DNA of 64,000 nucleotides from Christiangramia sp. (GTDB lineage: Bacteria > Bacteroidota > Bacteroidia > Flavobacteriales > Flavobacteriaceae): the NCBI RefSeq assembly GCF_029937855.1, contig NZ_JAPYPC010000002.1:62001-126000 (forward strand), given 5' to 3'. The notes beneath the pieces are model-generated. The model was not told the DNA's origin. It saw only the letters and a list, made by a program, of their open reading frames with translations, and made no database searches. Positions 2,935 through 9,305 of the stretch are shown here, piece by piece (position 1 is the stretch's first letter; every line of letters begins with the position of its first letter). Made by a program: the position numbers and the translations under genes.

Positions 2935-3186
2935 ATGAAAAAATTGACCCCTACTTTATTTTCATTTGCAAAGGTTTATTGCAATCTTTTCGGCCATAAA
3001 TTAAGAGTGTCTAAAAACATTACCAATCACGTACATGAGTATACCTGCAAAAAATGTGGGATGGAAATGACAGATACTGCAGATGGGCTATTAGCCAGAT
3101 TAACTCCGAGATTCAAAGAAACTAACAGGTACCTTGCCAAAATTCACGAGAAGCGAAAAAGGGTATTTTTCGCAAAGGCTTCTTAG
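2935..3186 (+). CDS. Small conserved protein with a CxxC motif
   Basis: An 83-residue basic protein of unknown function. The middle carries YTCKKCGMEMTD, a CxxC pair that with GHK or a nearby His could form a small zinc ribbon. The ATG at 2935 is the first in frame. The gene converges on thiL and their stop codons overlap by 3-4 bases (TAG and TTA in the same TTAG). Confidence 0.6.
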   Translation: MKKLTPTLFSFAKVYCNLFGHKLRVSKNITNHVHEYTCKKCGMEMTDTADGLLARLTPRFKETNRYLAKIHEKRKRVFFAKAS

Positions 3187-4238
3187 TCTTTTTTATTCTC
3201 CATCGAATTCCAGCCTCTTGCAATCAAAGGTAATTTTTGATTGGCTCGGGTCACCAGGTGCATACCTTCACTTTCTTGGGTCATGTGGCCAATCACCGTT
3301 AAGTGCGGATTTCCCTTTATTTTATCGTAATCTTCCTGTGCGATTGTAAAAAGCAGCTCATAGTCTTCCCCACCGCTTAGTGCGATCATGGTGCTATCTA
3401 TTTCAAATTCTTCACAAACTGAAATTACCGCAGGATCTAACGGAATTTTCTCTTCATACAGGTTAGCGCCCAATTTAGAGTTTTTACAAAGATGGATCAC
3501 TTCAGAAGAAAGTCCGTCGCTAATATCTATCATGGAGGTTGGAAGTACTCCCAGATCTTTTAAAAGTGGCGGAATGTCTTTTCTGGCTTCTGGCTTCAAT
3601 TGCCTTTCAATCAAATAGGTGTATTGATCGAGATCTGGTTGGGAATTTGGATTCGCTTTAAAAACTTCTTTTTCCCGTTCCAATACCTGTAAACCCATGT
3701 ATGCAGCTCCAAGATCACCTGTCACTACCAAAAGATCGTTTGCTTTAGCTCCGTTACGGTAAACAATTTCTTCTTTTTCAGCAATTCCCAACGCTGTAAT
3801 ACTAATCAGCAATCCGGAAGTAGAGGAAGTGGTATCCCCACCAATAACATCCACATTGTATATTTTAGAAGCCAGCTGAATTCCAGCATATAGTTCTTCC
3901 AGCGCTTCTACCGGAAAACGGTTCGAAACGGCTATGGAAACCGTGATTTGAGTGGCTTTTCCATTCATGGCGTAAACGTCTGAAAGGTTTACCATAACGG
4001 CTTTATATCCCAAATGCTTTAAAGGCATATACGCCAAGTCAAAATGAACGCCTTCTACGAGCAAATCTGTGGTAATTATGCTCTGCTTGTTTTTAAAATC
4101 CAGAACTGCAGCATCGTCACCAATCGCTTTAATGGTGGAATCTAACTTTGGTTTAAAATTCTTAGTTAAGTGATCTATTAAACCAAATTCACCTAATTCT
4201 GAAAGGTTTGTCTTATTTTCCTGACTATTTTCAAACAT
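3183..4238 (-). CDS. thiL: Thiamine-monophosphate kinase
   Basis: A 351-residue kinase that phosphorylates thiamine monophosphate to thiamine diphosphate, the last step of TPP synthesis. It has the PurM/ThiL fold: AIGDDAAVLDF near residue 41, TTDLLVEGVHFD near 60, NLSDVYAMNG near 84, the GGDTTSS segment near 135, and DISDGLSSEV near 235. Length and motif order fit ThiL. It is a lone gene on the minus strand with no TPP riboswitch visible upstream. Its product would feed TPP-dependent enzymes such as SucA, also in this window. Confidence 0.95.
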   Translation of the reverse strand: MFENSQENKTNLSELGEFGLIDHLTKNFKPKLDSTIKAIGDDAAVLDFKNKQSIITTDLLVEGVHFDLAYMPLKHLGYKAVMVNLSDVYAMNGKATQITVSIAVSNRFPVEALEELYAGIQLASKIYNVDVIGGDTTSSTSGLLISITALGIAEKEEIVYRNGAKANDLLVVTGDLGAAYMGLQVLEREKEVFKANPNSQPDLDQYTYLIERQLKPEARKDIPPLLKDLGVLPTSMIDISDGLSSEVIHLCKNSKLGANLYEEKIPLDPAVISVCEEFEIDSTMIALSGGEDYELLFTIAQEDYDKIKGNPHLTVIGHMTQESEGMHLVTRANQKLPLIARGWNSMENKKD

Positions 4239-4426
4239 GCAATTGAATTTTAAAATACAAAAGTACGATTATAAAATTCAATGAAGAAAATGAAGTTAAA
4301 GCATTGCTGGTGGAATTAGGAGTCTTTTAAATAGGGGAAAATTAGGTTATAAATTCTAATTGAAGACCTCTATAATTCAATTCTTAAAACATATGCTTAG
4401 TCTATGGTAAAACACATGCATTGTAG

Positions 4427-4434
4427 TATATTTG
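4427..4434 (+). promoter_or_regulatory. Putative promoter (-7 TATATTTG) of the iron-sulfur locus
   Basis: TATATTTG matches TAnnTTTG and lies 30 bases before the ATG of the A-type carrier gene. It is the best candidate for the main promoter of the suf locus; no good -33 TTG is visible. Confidence 0.5.
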
Positions 4435-4464
4435 TGCACAATTTAGAATTAATCTTTATAGGTT

Positions 4465-4794
4465 ATGATTAAAGTTAGCGAAGAGGCTAAAAGAAAAATT
4501 TCCACATTGATGTCTGAAGAAGGTTTTAACCCAGTTGCAGACTATGTTCGCGTAGGTGTGAAGAGTGGAGGTTGTTCTGGTTTATCTTACGAATTAAATT
4601 TTGATAAAAGCCAGGAGGAAGGTGATAAGATTTTTGAAGACAATGATGTTAAGATCGTTGTGGATAAGCGTAGTGTTCTGTATTTAGCAGGAACTATCCT
4701 TGAATATTCAGGAGGATTAAATGGCAAAGGATTTGTATTTAATAATCCTAATGCTCAAAGAACCTGCGGTTGCGGGGAGAGTTTTTCATTGTAA
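4465..4794 (+). CDS. A-type iron-sulfur carrier (IscA/SufA/ErpA family)
   Basis: A 109-residue HesB/IscA family protein. The three family cysteines are present: one in GGCSGLSY (about residue 36) and two in the C-terminal CGCGESF (about 103-105). The family receives Fe-S clusters from the scaffold and passes them to client proteins. It heads the suf locus and is separated from sufB by a four-helix-bundle gene. SufA versus ErpA cannot be decided from sequence alone. Confidence 0.92.
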   Translation: MIKVSEEAKRKISTLMSEEGFNPVADYVRVGVKSGGCSGLSYELNFDKSQEEGDKIFEDNDVKIVVDKRSVLYLAGTILEYSGGLNGKGFVFNNPNAQRTCGCGESFSL

Positions 4795-4821
4795 AGTGAA
4801 AAAGTTTAAAGTGCGAAAGTT
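4795..4821 (+). repeat. AAAGTGAAAAAGTTTAAAGTG spacer repeat, left of the four-helix-bundle gene
   Basis: The spacer before the inserted four-helix-bundle gene is built from short AAAGT(T)GAAAAGTT-like units. Read on the opposite strand, the spacer after that gene (5201-5222) has similar units, so the gene sits between imperfect inverted repeats. Confidence 0.4.
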
Positions 4822-4831
4822 CATAATGTAG

Positions 4832-5200
4832 ATGTCGAAATTTAGTTCTTTTGAAGAAATTAAAGCATGGCAAAAGGCTAGAGAATTAAATTCTGAAATC
4901 TATGAAATTAGTAACGATGGTCTGTTCAAAACAGATTTTGATTTAAAAAGTCAAATAAGAAGATCCAGTATTTCAATCTCTTCAAATATTGCTGAAGGAT
5001 TTGAAAGAGGGACGATAAAAGAATTTATTCGTTTTTTATATATAGCAAAAGCTTCGGCTGGCGAATTTAGATCTCAGCTATATTTAGCCTACGATTTAAG
5101 ATATATAAAGGATGAGAATTTTGAAAGGTTGAACTCCAGGGTGAGTGATATTTCGAAAATGATAAGTGGATTGATAAAATATTTAAATACCACTTTATAG
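4832..5200 (+). CDS. Four-helix-bundle protein (23S rRNA-intervening-sequence / S23 family)
   Basis: A 122-residue helical protein of the S23-like four-helix-bundle family (TIGR02436 type). The family signature is visible: FEEIKAWQKARELNSEIYEI at the N-terminus, then SQIRRSSISISSNIAEGFER (about residues 47-66) and FIRFLYIAKASAGEFRSQL. The family was first seen in intervening sequences of 23S rRNA and is scattered through Bacteroidetes; its function is not established. It interrupts the suf locus between the A-type carrier and sufB and is flanked by repeat-like spacers, which suggests insertion. Confidence 0.85.
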   Translation: MSKFSSFEEIKAWQKARELNSEIYEISNDGLFKTDFDLKSQIRRSSISISSNIAEGFERGTIKEFIRFLYIAKASAGEFRSQLYLAYDLRYIKDENFERLNSRVSDISKMISGLIKYLNTTL

Positions 5201-5222
5201 CGTTCAACTTTTCAACTTTAAA
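5201..5222 (-). repeat. Inverted counterpart of the 4795 spacer repeat
   Basis: CGTTCAACTTTTCAACTTTA reads on the minus strand as AAAGTTGAAAAGTTGAACG, similar to the AAAGTGAAAAAGTTTAAAGTG left of the four-helix-bundle gene. Low-complexity similarity, so confidence is limited. Confidence 0.35.
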
Positions 5223-5230
5223 AACAGAAT

Positions 5231-6676
5231 ATGGCATATACTGAAGATGATTTAAAGAAAGAGCTCGAAACCAAAGAGTATGAGTATGGGTTTTATACAG
5301 ATATAGAATCTGATACTTTTCCTGTGGGCTTGAACGAAGATATCGTAAGGGCAATTTCTAAAAAGAAAGAAGAACCGGAGTGGATGACACAGTGGCGGTT
5401 GGAAGCATACCGCGCCTGGGAAGAAATGATCGAACCGCAGTGGGCCAATGTGAAATATCCAAAACCAGACTTTCAAAATATATCTTATTACTCGGCACCT
5501 AATAAAAAGCCGAAATACGAAAGTTTGGATGAGGTAGATCCAGAATTGCTGGACACATTCAAAAAATTGGGGATCTCTCTGGACGAGCAGAAGAAACTGG
5601 CCGGAGTCGCGGTAGATGTAGTAATGGATTCAGTTTCTGTAACTACTACTTTTAAAAAGACATTGGCTGAAAAAGGGATTATTTTCTGTTCTATTTCTGA
5701 AGCAATTAAGGAGCATCCTGAACTGGTAAAGAAATATTTGGGAACCGTGGTTCCGAAGAAAGATAACTTTTATGCAGCTTTGAACTCGGCGGTATTCAGT
5801 GACGGCTCTTTTTGCTATATCCCTAAAGGAGTGCGTTGCCCAATGGAGCTTTCCACTTATTTCAGAATTAACCAGGCAGGTACAGGTCAGTTTGAAAGAA
5901 CCCTTGTGGTTGCAGATGAAGATAGTTATGTAAGTTATCTGGAAGGTTGTACTGCACCTTCACGTGATGAAAATCAATTGCATGCTGCCGTTGTAGAGCT
6001 TGTGGCCTTAGATGGTTCAGAAATTAAATACAGTACCGTTCAAAACTGGTTTCCCGGGAACAAAGAAGGTAAGGGAGGAGTTTTCAATTTTGTTACTAAA
6101 AGAGGCCTTTGCGAGAAAAACGCGAAGATCTCCTGGACACAGGTGGAGACAGGTTCAGCAGTAACCTGGAAATACCCTAGTTGTATTTTAAAAGGAGATA
6201 ACTCTGTTGGTGAATTCTATTCTATTGCAGTTACTAATAACTGGCAACAGGCAGATACAGGAACGAAGATGATCCATCTTGGAAAGAATACCAAAAGTAC
6301 CATCATTTCTAAAGGTATTTCGGCAGGACAATCTCAGAATTCCTATCGGGGGCTTGTTCAGATAAATGGACGAGCGCATAACGCCAGAAACTTTTCACAA
6401 TGTGATTCCCTCTTAATGGGTAACAAATGTGGAGCGCATACCTTCCCATATATAGAAGTTAAAAATAAATCGGCTCAGGTTGAGCACGAGGCGACGACGA
6501 GTAAAATTGGAGAAGACCAGATATTCTATTGTAATCAGCGTGGGATTGATACTGAAAAAGCAATAGCCTTAATTGTGAATGGGTTTAGTAAGGAAGTATT
6601 AAATAAACTGCCCATGGAGTTTGCAGTAGAAGCTCAGAAATTACTTGAAATTTCGCTGGAAGGTTCCGTTGGATAA
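5231..6676 (+). CDS. sufB: Fe-S cluster assembly scaffold SufB
   Basis: A 481-residue SufB, the scaffold subunit of the SufBCD complex on which Fe-S clusters are built in the cytosol. The long family-typical N-terminus is followed by the beta-helix core, with conserved segments such as [39 protein letters not shown] and the C-terminal [20 protein letters not shown]. Length matches SufB (about 480), and it starts 30 bases after the four-helix-bundle gene. Works with SufC and SufD downstream and receives sulfur from SufS/SufE. Confidence 0.98.
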
Positions 6677-6697
6677 ACCCCAGCGCTAAAAACTGTT

Positions 6698-7081
6698 ATG
6701 AAGAAGTTATTTGGAGTATTGATATTGAGCCTGGTTCTTTTTTCCTGTCAGGATTACGAAAGAAAAGAATTATTAGATCAGCCCCAGGCTGAAAAAGTAA
6801 GGGATAGTATTCAGGTTTTGGAAGGAGAAGTTGTTTACGGTGGTGAGTCTGCGGTGATGCGAGGTGAGAATTTTGTTTATGGGATCACTTTAGATTCAAC
6901 TTCGAAAGTTCTTTCAGAAAGAATCGCTCCTTTAAAATCTGATGATTTTGAAATGATCCCGGTTAAGGTGAAAGCTCAGATAAGGCCAAATCCACGACAG
7001 GAAGGATGGGAAGAAGTGATTGAAATTTTAGAAATCCTTGAGGTTCCTGAGGGAGCAAAAGTATCAGACTCAATAAAATAA
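6698..7081 (+). CDS. Small lipoprotein inside the suf operon
   Basis: A 127-residue putative lipoprotein of unknown function. Residues 1-17 form a lipoprotein signal (MKKLFGVLILSLVLFSC, lipobox Cys at 17). The remainder is charged, with a likely small beta domain (VYGITLDSTSKVL, KVKAQIRPNPRQEGWEEVIEILEI). It lies between sufB (21-base gap) and sufC (51-base gap) and is co-directional, so it is probably transcribed with them. A periplasmic lipoprotein is not expected in a cytosolic cluster-assembly machine, so co-transcription need not mean shared function. Confidence 0.7.
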   Translation: MKKLFGVLILSLVLFSCQDYERKELLDQPQAEKVRDSIQVLEGEVVYGGESAVMRGENFVYGITLDSTSKVLSERIAPLKSDDFEMIPVKVKAQIRPNPRQEGWEEVIEILEILEVPEGAKVSDSIK

Positions 7082-7101
7082 TAAATAGAAAAAATAAATC
7101 C

Positions 7102-7117
7102 ATCTGCCAAAGCAGAT
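7102..7117 (+). repeat. Short hairpin in the sufB-sufC spacer
   Basis: ATCTGC and GCAGAT form a perfect 6-bp stem around CAAA, directly before the sufC start. It has no T run, so it is not an ordinary terminator; it may be an mRNA-processing or attenuation hairpin, or a small dispersed palindrome. Confidence 0.35.
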
Positions 7118-7132
7118 TCAGAATTGATAAAC

Positions 7133-7885
7133 ATGCTTAAAATAAAGAATTTACACGCCAGCATAGAAGATAAAGAAATCTTAAAAGGAATTAACCTTGA
7201 GATTAATCCGGGAGAAGTACATGCGATCATGGGACCCAATGGGTCAGGAAAGAGTACTTTATCTTCAGTAATTGCAGGAAGAGAGGAATATGAAATGACC
7301 GAGGGTGAAATGATCTTCGAAGGTGCAGATCTTCAGGAGATGGACCCCGAAGAAAGGTCTCACAAAGGCATTTTCCTTTCTTTTCAATATCCTGTGGAAA
7401 TTCCGGGAGTTTCAGTAACCAACTTTATCAAAACAGCGATCAATGCACAGCGTAAAGCACATGGTAAAGAGGATATGCCGGCGAATGAAATGCTGAAGAT
7501 GATTCGTGAGAAGTCTGAATCGCTGGAAATCGACCGTAAGTTTTTATCACGTTCCCTAAATCAGGGATTCTCCGGAGGAGAGAAAAAGCGTAATGAGATC
7601 TTCCAGATGGCAGTATTAGATCCAAAATTATCTATTCTGGACGAAACAGATTCAGGTCTGGATATCGATGCTTTAAAGGTAGTGGCCAATGGAGTGAACA
7701 AGCTTAGAAGAGAAGATAATGCCGTATTGCTTATTACCCACTACCAGAGATTATTGAATTATATCGTACCAGATGTGGTGCATGTAATGATAGACGGGAA
7801 AATTGTGAAATCTGGAGGGAAAGAGCTAGCTCACGAACTGGAAGAAAGAGGTTACGACTGGATAAAGGCAGAGAAAACCGTTTAA
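7133..7885 (+). CDS. sufC: Fe-S assembly ATPase SufC
   Basis: A 250-residue ABC-type ATPase that drives conformational change in SufBCD. Walker A is GPNGSGKST (near residue 35), the signature FSGGEKKRNE (near 147), Walker B LSILDETDSGLDID (near 166) and the switch His in LLITHYQ (near 200). I chose ATG 7133 (MLKIKNLHAS) over the TTG at 7124 in the ORF track, because SufC proteins start at this point. Same operon as sufB and sufD. Confidence 0.97.
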   Translation: MLKIKNLHASIEDKEILKGINLEINPGEVHAIMGPNGSGKSTLSSVIAGREEYEMTEGEMIFEGADLQEMDPEERSHKGIFLSFQYPVEIPGVSVTNFIKTAINAQRKAHGKEDMPANEMLKMIREKSESLEIDRKFLSRSLNQGFSGGEKKRNEIFQMAVLDPKLSILDETDSGLDIDALKVVANGVNKLRREDNAVLLITHYQRLLNYIVPDVVHVMIDGKIVKSGGKELAHELEERGYDWIKAEKTV

Positions 7886-7911
7886 TCAATTTGAAAATTC
7901 GTCAATTTGAT
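7886..7911 (+). repeat. Tandem TCAATTTGA repeat in the sufC-sufD spacer
   Basis: Two copies of TCAATTTGA start 16 bases apart at 7886 and 7902, followed by TAATTGAATAA. The 103-base spacer holds no ORF. Its significance is unclear; AT-rich repeated spacers of this kind could be decayed dispersed repeats. Confidence 0.35.
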
Positions 7912-7988
7912 AATTGAATAAGTTGATTGTTTAAAAAACACCTTTTACAGAGTTAAATTTTAAACCTTGAACTTTAAATTTAAAAAGA

Positions 7989-9305
7989 ATGGAATTAAAA
8001 GATAAACTTATCTCATCATTTTTAGCTTTTGAAGAAGGGCTGGAGCCAGATAAAGGAATGGATTCTATCAGAAATGAAGCTATCAGGGAATTTGAAAACC
8101 TGGGCTTTCCGAATAGAAAAGATGAGAACTGGAAATATACTTCGCTTAATGCTATATTAAAGCATGACTATACTATATTTCCGAAGAAAGAAGATGCGAT
8201 AGAATATCGTGATATTAAGAAATATCTTATTCATGATATAGATACTTACGATCTTGTATTTATTGATGGGATCTTTTCTTCACACTTGTCTCAAACCACA
8301 CACGATAAGATCGATGTTTGTTTAATGTCTTCAGCATTAACGCAGGATAAATACAGACCGGTAATAGATAATTACTTTAATAAGATAGCGCCAAAATCTG
8401 GTTTGAATTCTTTGAACACAGCTTTTGCAAGAGAAGGTGCATTTATCCATATCCATAAGAATAAGCAGGCAGATAAACCTATACAGATCATCAATTTCGC
8501 CACGGGAAATGAATCTTCTTTACTGCTTCAGCCAAGAAATCTGGTAGTGGTAGAAGAGAATTCTCATGTTCAGATTATTGAAAGACACCAAAGTCTTACA
8601 GAGCATCCGGTACTTACCAATTCTTTGACGGAGATCTATGCCGATAGAAGGGCAATGGTAGATTATTACAAGATTCAGAATGATAAAGGTTCGGCGTCTT
8701 TAATAGACAACACCTTTATAGATCAGAAAGATGAAAGTAATGTATCTGTGCATACTTTCTCATTCGGAGGAAAACTGACCCGTAACAACCTCAATTTTTA
8801 TCAAAATGGTGAGCGTATAGACTCTACCATGAAAGGGGTTACCATCATTGAAGGTAAACAGCATGTAGATCATAATACTTTAGTACACCATATTGAACCG
8901 AATTGTGAAAGTCATCAGGATTATAAAGGTATTTTTGGTGACAGTTCTACTGGAGTTTTCAACGGAAAGGTTTTAGTGGAAAAAGAAGCTCAGAAAACAA
9001 ATGCCTACCAGTCTAATAACAATATCCTTGCAGACGATAAAGCAACGATAAACTCTAAACCACAATTGGAGATCTTTGCAGATGATGTCGCCTGTAGTCA
9101 TGGATGTACTATTGGTCAATTGGATGAGGAAGCATTATTTTATCTCCAATCCAGGGGAATTCCGAGAAAAGAAGCAAGGGGACTAATGCTGTATGCTTTT
9201 GCAAATAACGTTTTGGAAAGTGTAAAGATTCCTGAAGTTAAGAAGAGAATCAATAAATTGATCGCTTCCAAGCTAGAGGTAGATCTTGGTTTTAATAACC
9301 TGTAA
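7989..9305 (+). CDS. sufD: Fe-S cluster assembly protein SufD
   Basis: A 438-residue SufD, the partner of SufB in the SufBC2D scaffold complex. It has the SufB/SufD beta-helix core in the middle and a C-terminal helical region with CSHGCTIGQLDEEALFYLQS (about residues 370-389) followed by RGIPRKEARGLM, both family hallmarks. The N-terminus contains FENLGFPNRKDENWKYTSL, typical of SufD. It lies 103 bases after sufC and 24 bases before sufS. Confidence 0.97.
   Translation: MELKDKLISSFLAFEEGLEPDKGMDSIRNEAIREFENLGFPNRKDENWKYTSLNAILKHDYTIFPKKEDAIEYRDIKKYLIHDIDTYDLVFIDGIFSSHLSQTTHDKIDVCLMSSALTQDKYRPVIDNYFNKIAPKSGLNSLNTAFAREGAFIHIHKNKQADKPIQIINFATGNESSLLLQPRNLVVVEENSHVQIIERHQSLTEHPVLTNSLTEIYADRRAMVDYYKIQNDKGSASLIDNTFIDQKDESNVSVHTFSFGGKLTRNNLNFYQNGERIDSTMKGVTIIEGKQHVDHNTLVHHIEPNCESHQDYKGIFGDSSTGVFNGKVLVEKEAQKTNAYQSNNNILADDKATINSKPQLEIFADDVACSHGCTIGQLDEEALFYLQSRGIPRKEARGLMLYAFANNVLESVKIPEVKKRINKLIASKLEVDLGFNNL

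Follow-up and report, generated by a model that had tools for sequence, protein, structure and literature searches.

The window, a stretch of 64,000 nt from a Christiangramia sp. contig, carries an S23-family gene between sufA and sufB, bounded on either side by short repeats. The features are as follows.

4465..4794, + strand: sufA/IscA-type Fe-S carrier gene, the upstream host (TIGR00049, E = 1.2e-33); it precedes sufB in 24/24 same-genus genomes
4793..4821, + strand: left arm, an imperfect array of AAAGTGA/AAAAGTT-like units that begins within the sufA stop codon (from the sequence and the inverted match to the right arm; missing from empty sites)
4832..5200, + strand: S23 / 23S_rRNA_IVP four-helix-bundle gene, 122 aa (PF05635, E = 2.4e-36; TIGR02436, E = 1e-36; AlphaFold model)
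5202..5224, + strand: right arm GTTCAACTTTTCAACTTTAAAAA, the reverse complement of the left-arm unit type (from the sequence and the inverted match to the left arm)
5231..6676, + strand: sufB, the downstream host gene (NF008773/PRK11814, E = 3e-275)

An earlier note on this DNA had proposed that an S23 gene was inserted in the suf locus between repeat-like flanks of opposite orientation. The open reading frame at 4832-5200 is that gene, with bit scores above the curated cut-offs of both families (PF05635, 124.6 vs 33.8; TIGR02436, 125.5 vs 24), and it has the sufA-type gene on one side and sufB on the other. The left flank TAAAGTGAAAAAGTTTAAAGTGCGAAAGTT and the right flank GTTCAACTTTTCAACTTTAAAA run in opposite orientation, and the arm unit at this copy is AAAGT(T)GAAAAGTT-like. 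Pairing between the two arms is moderate, with a duplex energy of -14.2 kcal/mol. S23 is the only complete gene inside the cassette, which encodes no Y1 (HUH) transposase, and no reverse transcriptase gene is present at the suf locus. Window positions 3000-8500 gave no Rfam match; the cassette lies between sufA and sufB, not in a 16S or 23S rRNA gene.

The AlphaFold prediction for the S23 product (pLDDT 93.7) has four helices. The closest PDB structures to this model are 2GSC (TM 0.85-0.89) and 2RLD (TM 0.81-0.91), followed by Avd (4DWL) and the RNPs of diversity-generating retroelements (DGRs), with TM of ~0.74-0.83 at ~11% identity. The modelled structure shows the four-helix bundle of 2GSC/2RLD (pentamer) and the Avd fold. 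The S23 family was first recognised inside bacterial rRNA; structures of its members have been solved, and we know of no function for them.

Comparison with relatives revealed that in 10 of 24 same-genus genomes sufA and sufB are separated by an empty slot of 53-65 bp. The remaining 14 genomes carry an S23 gene or remnant of one of three types, each with its own flank unit: type A, which is the window's copy, in four genomes (decayed in one); type B in nine (a 141-bp remnant in one, frameshifted in some); and type C in one. In the S23 protein tree, type A does not group with type B as its sister. On a tree of sufA and sufB, the distribution of filled and empty states is patchy and requires 10 changes, and one supported sister pair (L015/L013, support 96/92) consists of a filled and an empty locus. 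Given that the slot is empty in 10 genomes and holds three types with their own flanks in 14, we conclude that the S23 gene is an optional cassette. The gene is therefore not conserved across the family at this position, in agreement with the cassette-like history that the earlier note had considered plausible.

The empty suf spacers (L013-L033) contain a short hairpin of unconserved sequence (z of about -0.5 to -2.5), followed by AATTAGAATTA ahead of sufB. These small hairpins prompted the idea that insertion needs a pre-existing hairpin; it does not hold generally, since other empty sites, such as site 8, have a gap of only ~3 bp and no hairpin. Elsewhere in the operon, window positions 6698-7081 encode a 127-aa putative lipoprotein between sufB and sufC, with a signal ending in FSCQD and no Pfam match. 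The sufB-sufC distance is nearly constant among 24 genus genomes (451-466 nt), and this insert, unlike S23, seems fixed. A further genome of the class has an S23 cassette between sufB and sufC (L209), so that the suf operon has been hit at more than one place. In the window's sufC-sufD spacer (7886-7988) there are heptad-like tracts, CAATTTGAAAATTCGTCAATTTGATAATTG ... TTAAACCTTGAACTTTAAATTT, but no gene; comparable inverted pairs lacking a gene are present at this position in several relatives, and in one (G022, L036) the gap is 56 bp.

The window's genome contains 11 PF05635 matches, two of which have stops and one of which spans only half the model. Across the genus there are 128 distinct near-complete S23 copies, which represent 25 sites. 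In both flanks of the genus copies, the lag spectrum has peaks only at 7, 14 and 21 nt (0.43, 0.38 and 0.36, vs ~0.29), and the matched left and right flanks of a copy are inverted-complementary, scoring 15.9 against 10.0-10.8 for mismatched, direct and mirror controls. The same was found with one copy per site: lag-7 identity was 0.41 vs 0.29 at other lags, and matched arms scored 16.2 vs 9.9 for permuted pairs (z 11.8), which places the inverted flanks beyond chance over the 25 genus sites. Among 83 operon-internal control genes of 300-800 nt, we detected neither a heptad period nor matched inverted arms.

The repeat unit varies between S23 copies and agrees between the left and right arms of a copy. 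A flank sequence common to all copies was rejected; they have only period and orientation in common. The AAAGT(T)-like units noted earlier are therefore present and inverted at the suf copy, but they are locus-specific and do not represent one repeat family, and the genome's other S23 genes resemble it in having inverted arms of 7-nt period, each copy with its own unit, rather than in flank sequence. At site 0, three S23 lineages with ~25-35% mutual identity each have a different arm unit, and even orthologues differ in their arm sequence. We considered three further regularities. The S23 protein lineage has only a slight effect on the arm unit across sites; arm polarity does not track the host operon, the G-rich arm lying on average at the S23 5' side in either host-operon direction; and strict covariation of the stem among orthologues is weak (15.8 vs 15.1, 12/17 sites). 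Predicted arm duplexes are moderately better than shuffled ones (mean -26 vs -19.5 kcal/mol). Arm pairs without a gene are found at several places, among them site 13 and the sufC-sufD gap, and are only scattered in the window's genus.

Two S23 genes of a divergent subfamily lie in the his operon of the window's genome and of another species (L009, L010, L150), one before hisA and the other between hisA and hisF. At site 14, one S23 copy (L129, genome G007) lies between direct repeats AACTCAACACTAAAAACT where its orthologues have inverted ones, possibly through partial rearrangement or duplication.

At each of the 25 genus sites the neighbouring genes are codirectional (baseline 0.73, p = 4e-4), and S23 is in sense at 24 of these sites (p = 8e-7), with orientations taken from a simple ORF caller that may misjudge single genes, particularly in GC-rich genomes. 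Site 3 is the single antisense site, with S23 antisense to its neighbours in 10/10 genomes. The insertions are old (dS ~1.1), and S23 lineages are locked to their sites with rare jumps: the tree carries 28 site changes, where the minimum is 24 and the shuffled mean 92. Taken together, the cassette is an optional, operon-internal and sense-oriented element, in which inverted arrays of a locus-specific ~7-nt unit surround one S23 gene under purifying selection.

The arms extend well beyond the genus. When scored with the genus measures, 30 class-level S23 loci gave z 14.7 with a lag-7 identity of 0.42, and 47 loci from phyla other than Bacteroidota, from which Xanthomonadales accB-S23-accC copies had also been removed, gave z 22.1 and 0.41; these samples are biased to high-scoring S23 genes, and the frequency of heptad arms in them is not transferable to all S23 genes. 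Twelve S23 copies on cyanobacterial plasmids had lag-7 identities of 0.51 and 0.48 and matched-arm scores of 18.8 vs 10.4, with examples including cas6-S23-cas4 and an nrdB-S23-nrdA arrangement with GGGAGTA arms. The S23 genes between cas6 and cas4 belong to CRISPR operons on Pseudanabaena and Anabaena plasmids (L337, L339). No S23 gene was found in a phage collection at E 1e-4, and no rRNA family matched at the 20 S23 loci tested, where one tRNA was the only match. As heptad arms of this kind surround S23 relatives in many phyla, the suf cassette seems to belong to a widespread but so far unrecognised class of selfish cassettes that inhabit protein operons.

We counted the pattern GGGAWTCGGGAWTCGGG in five Xanthomonadales genomes, each of which has one or two S23 genes, and obtained 152, 101, 2, 39 and 119 occurrences; the reversed control gave 0. 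The four high-count genomes have one S23 gene each and, among the places listed, many dispersed arrays with the unit of their own S23 arm: GGGATTC in Rhodanobacter and mostly in Dokdonella, and GGGAATC in Luteimonas. For Xanthomonas, we infer the array unit from the published genus repeat GGGAATC, not from listed places. Dyella, whose S23 arms are GGGAATA, nearly lacks the pattern. Seven of 16 inspected Xanthomonadales arrays have an inverted partner within 400 bp and no S23 gene.

The explanation we favour, and consider probable, is that the suf feature is a selfish cassette of the intervening sequence (IVS) type that has come to reside in a protein operon rather than in rRNA; its arms would fold, its S23 protein would bind and the cassette would spread. 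Speaking for it are the polymorphic suf slot with three S23 types and their own flanks, the site-locked lineages, the heptad period and matched inverted arms in four independent sets but not in control genes, the codirectional and sense setting of the genus sites, the low dN/dS (median 0.09), the dispersed arrays of the four Xanthomonadales genomes, the heptamers and RNase III cut of the Coxiella rRNA IVS (PMC4990558), and the protein fold. The arms would fold the operon transcript, or single-stranded DNA, back on itself, leaving the S23 reading frame in the loop as in 23S rRNA IVSs. Such folding could render the insert tolerable to sufA and sufB, through RNase III trimming or simple insulation. 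An S23 oligomer would bind the heptad arms, and this binding may help the cassette, and gene-less arm pairs with the same unit, to persist or spread. Since duplex energies are only moderately better than shuffled and covariation is weak, RNase III excision from the transcript, proved for rRNA IVSs, is no more than possible for the suf cassette. The weak covariation, the modest suf stem, the old insertions and the hairpin-free empty sites all count against the IVS-type reading, as do the lack of a target duplication and of a recombinase (no dedicated one was found for S23 cassettes). In addition, none of the S23 loci examined is itself an rRNA IVS, and the link to rRNA comes from published work (PMC4990558).

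A broader proposal, which we put forward only tentatively, is that S23/IVP proteins supply the trans-acting factors of a hitherto unrecognised and near-universal system in bacteria, one that generates and disperses inverted heptanucleotide arrays. An S23 gene with heptad arms would be its autonomous form; arm pairs that lack a gene, among them the Xanthomonas GGGAATC repeats and the short tandem repeats of heterocystous cyanobacteria, would be its non-autonomous progeny. What is recognised would be the 7-nt periodicity, not a fixed sequence, and no known recombinase would be needed.

Inverted arms, patchy presence and gene-less arm pairs would also be expected of a non-autonomous DNA element (IS/MITE/RAYT-like), with the arms as terminal inverted repeats cut by a trans-acting transposase and S23 as a passenger, and the dispersed inverted pairs resemble REP/REPIN sets. 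However, arms that differ even between site 0 orthologues are a poor fit to a sequence-specific transposase, and visual comparison of sites revealed no target-site duplication. Furthermore, Y1 transposase is absent from 17/25 same-genus genomes, including the S23-rich G010, G015, G018 and G021. We consider this explanation unlikely.

Somewhat less likely again is a host-useful regulatory module, in which S23 binds the heptad arms of the mRNA as operator sites and tunes expression of its own operon. The S23 gene is under strong purifying selection (median dN/dS 0.09 over 33 orthologue pairs), and this, together with its sense position within operons and its long-term retention at given sites, is what a regulator would predict. 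However, the host genes have no functional relation, ranging over suf, his, acyl-CoA metabolism, accBC, cas, nrd and plasmid transfer; the slot is empty in close relatives; several S23 copies have decayed; and a regulator of its own operon is hard to reconcile with the antisense gene in all ten genomes at site 3.

The heptads might instead be ordinary simple repeats made by slippage, with S23 genes merely persisting in repeat-rich intergenic gaps; in many genomes no 5-11-nt repeat is commoner than the heptamer, and an origin by slippage has been proposed, according to work cited in PMC4679880. Slippage leaves unexplained why the same unit recurs in inverted left and right arms (z 12-22), and heptads are missing from the empty suf sites and from the control genes. 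Moreover, few heptad windows are seen elsewhere (one genome has 6 per 400 kb at a threshold passed by 43% of left flanks), and we regard this account as improbable. The least likely is a retroelement, in which S23, as a relative of Avd, recruits a cellular reverse transcriptase, heptads arise from reverse-transcription slippage and insertion follows mRNA sense: the Avd-like fold and the sense bias fit, but reverse transcriptase (PF00078) is absent from 17/25 same-genus genomes, including the S23-rich G003, G007, G008, G010 and G013, and none is linked to cassettes. With each missing in 17/25 genomes, neither reverse transcriptase nor Y1 transposase is a constant companion, and the data do not support either as an obligate partner.

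Under the IVS-type reading, what is new is that an element of this type lies outside rRNA, and there is a realistic prospect that a wider new system lies behind it. The data tie S23 proteins to heptanucleotide repeats across phyla, the repeats being the arms of S23 cassettes, and a direct, testable route is opened to the binding targets of S23, the movement of IVSs and the origin of heptad repeats. Many genes annotated as 'four helix bundle protein' within operons are likely inserts, not pathway genes.

Heptanucleotide repeats are common in bacteria and, to our knowledge, unexplained; a relationship of the suf cassette's arms to them is the best reading of our data. Published heptanucleotide SSRs include GGGAATC of Xanthomonas and GGGGA(C/T)T of Nostoc; X. 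campestris has 186 sets, 70 of them inverted pairs, mostly between codirectional genes and with function unknown, and S23 is mentioned for neither genus (PMC4692102). TAACTGA arrays have been described in Beggiatoaceae, in cyanobacteria and in some Bacteroidetes, Gramella among them (PMC4679880). In the open-access literature, we found no link of S23 genes to heptads outside the Coxiella rRNA IVS. The S23 cassettes resemble the SSRs in their 7-nt unit and in being intergenic, mostly between codirectional genes and rarely between divergent ones; with the Xanthomonas SSRs they have in common many inverted pairs, and Xanthomonadales S23 arms bear the same units. Unlike the cassettes, most SSR arrays hold no gene.

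Similarity to RAYT/REP (REPIN) systems lies in a gene flanked by inverted short repeats with relatives dispersed intergenically in the same genome, as in the four Xanthomonadales genomes, but S23 is a four-helix bundle, not a Y1 HUH transposase, and its unit varies by locus. DGR Avd has the same fold (4DWL and DGR RNP structures), but identity is ~11% and the suf locus has no reverse transcriptase gene. IS elements differ in that arm sequence here varies between copies and orthologues and target duplication is not apparent. The 23S rRNA IVSs of Leptospira and Coxiella are matched in an S23 ORF of ~120 codons, an element of ~430 nt, complementary termini, sense position in the host transcript and sporadic occurrence at a given site. 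A further likeness is to the Coxiella IVS, in which three tandem GACAGAT heptamers precede the S23 ORF and RNase III cuts at the first of them (PMC4990558). The suf cassette differs from the 23S rRNA IVSs in that its host is a protein-coding operon, its stem is weaker and excision by RNase III is only possible.
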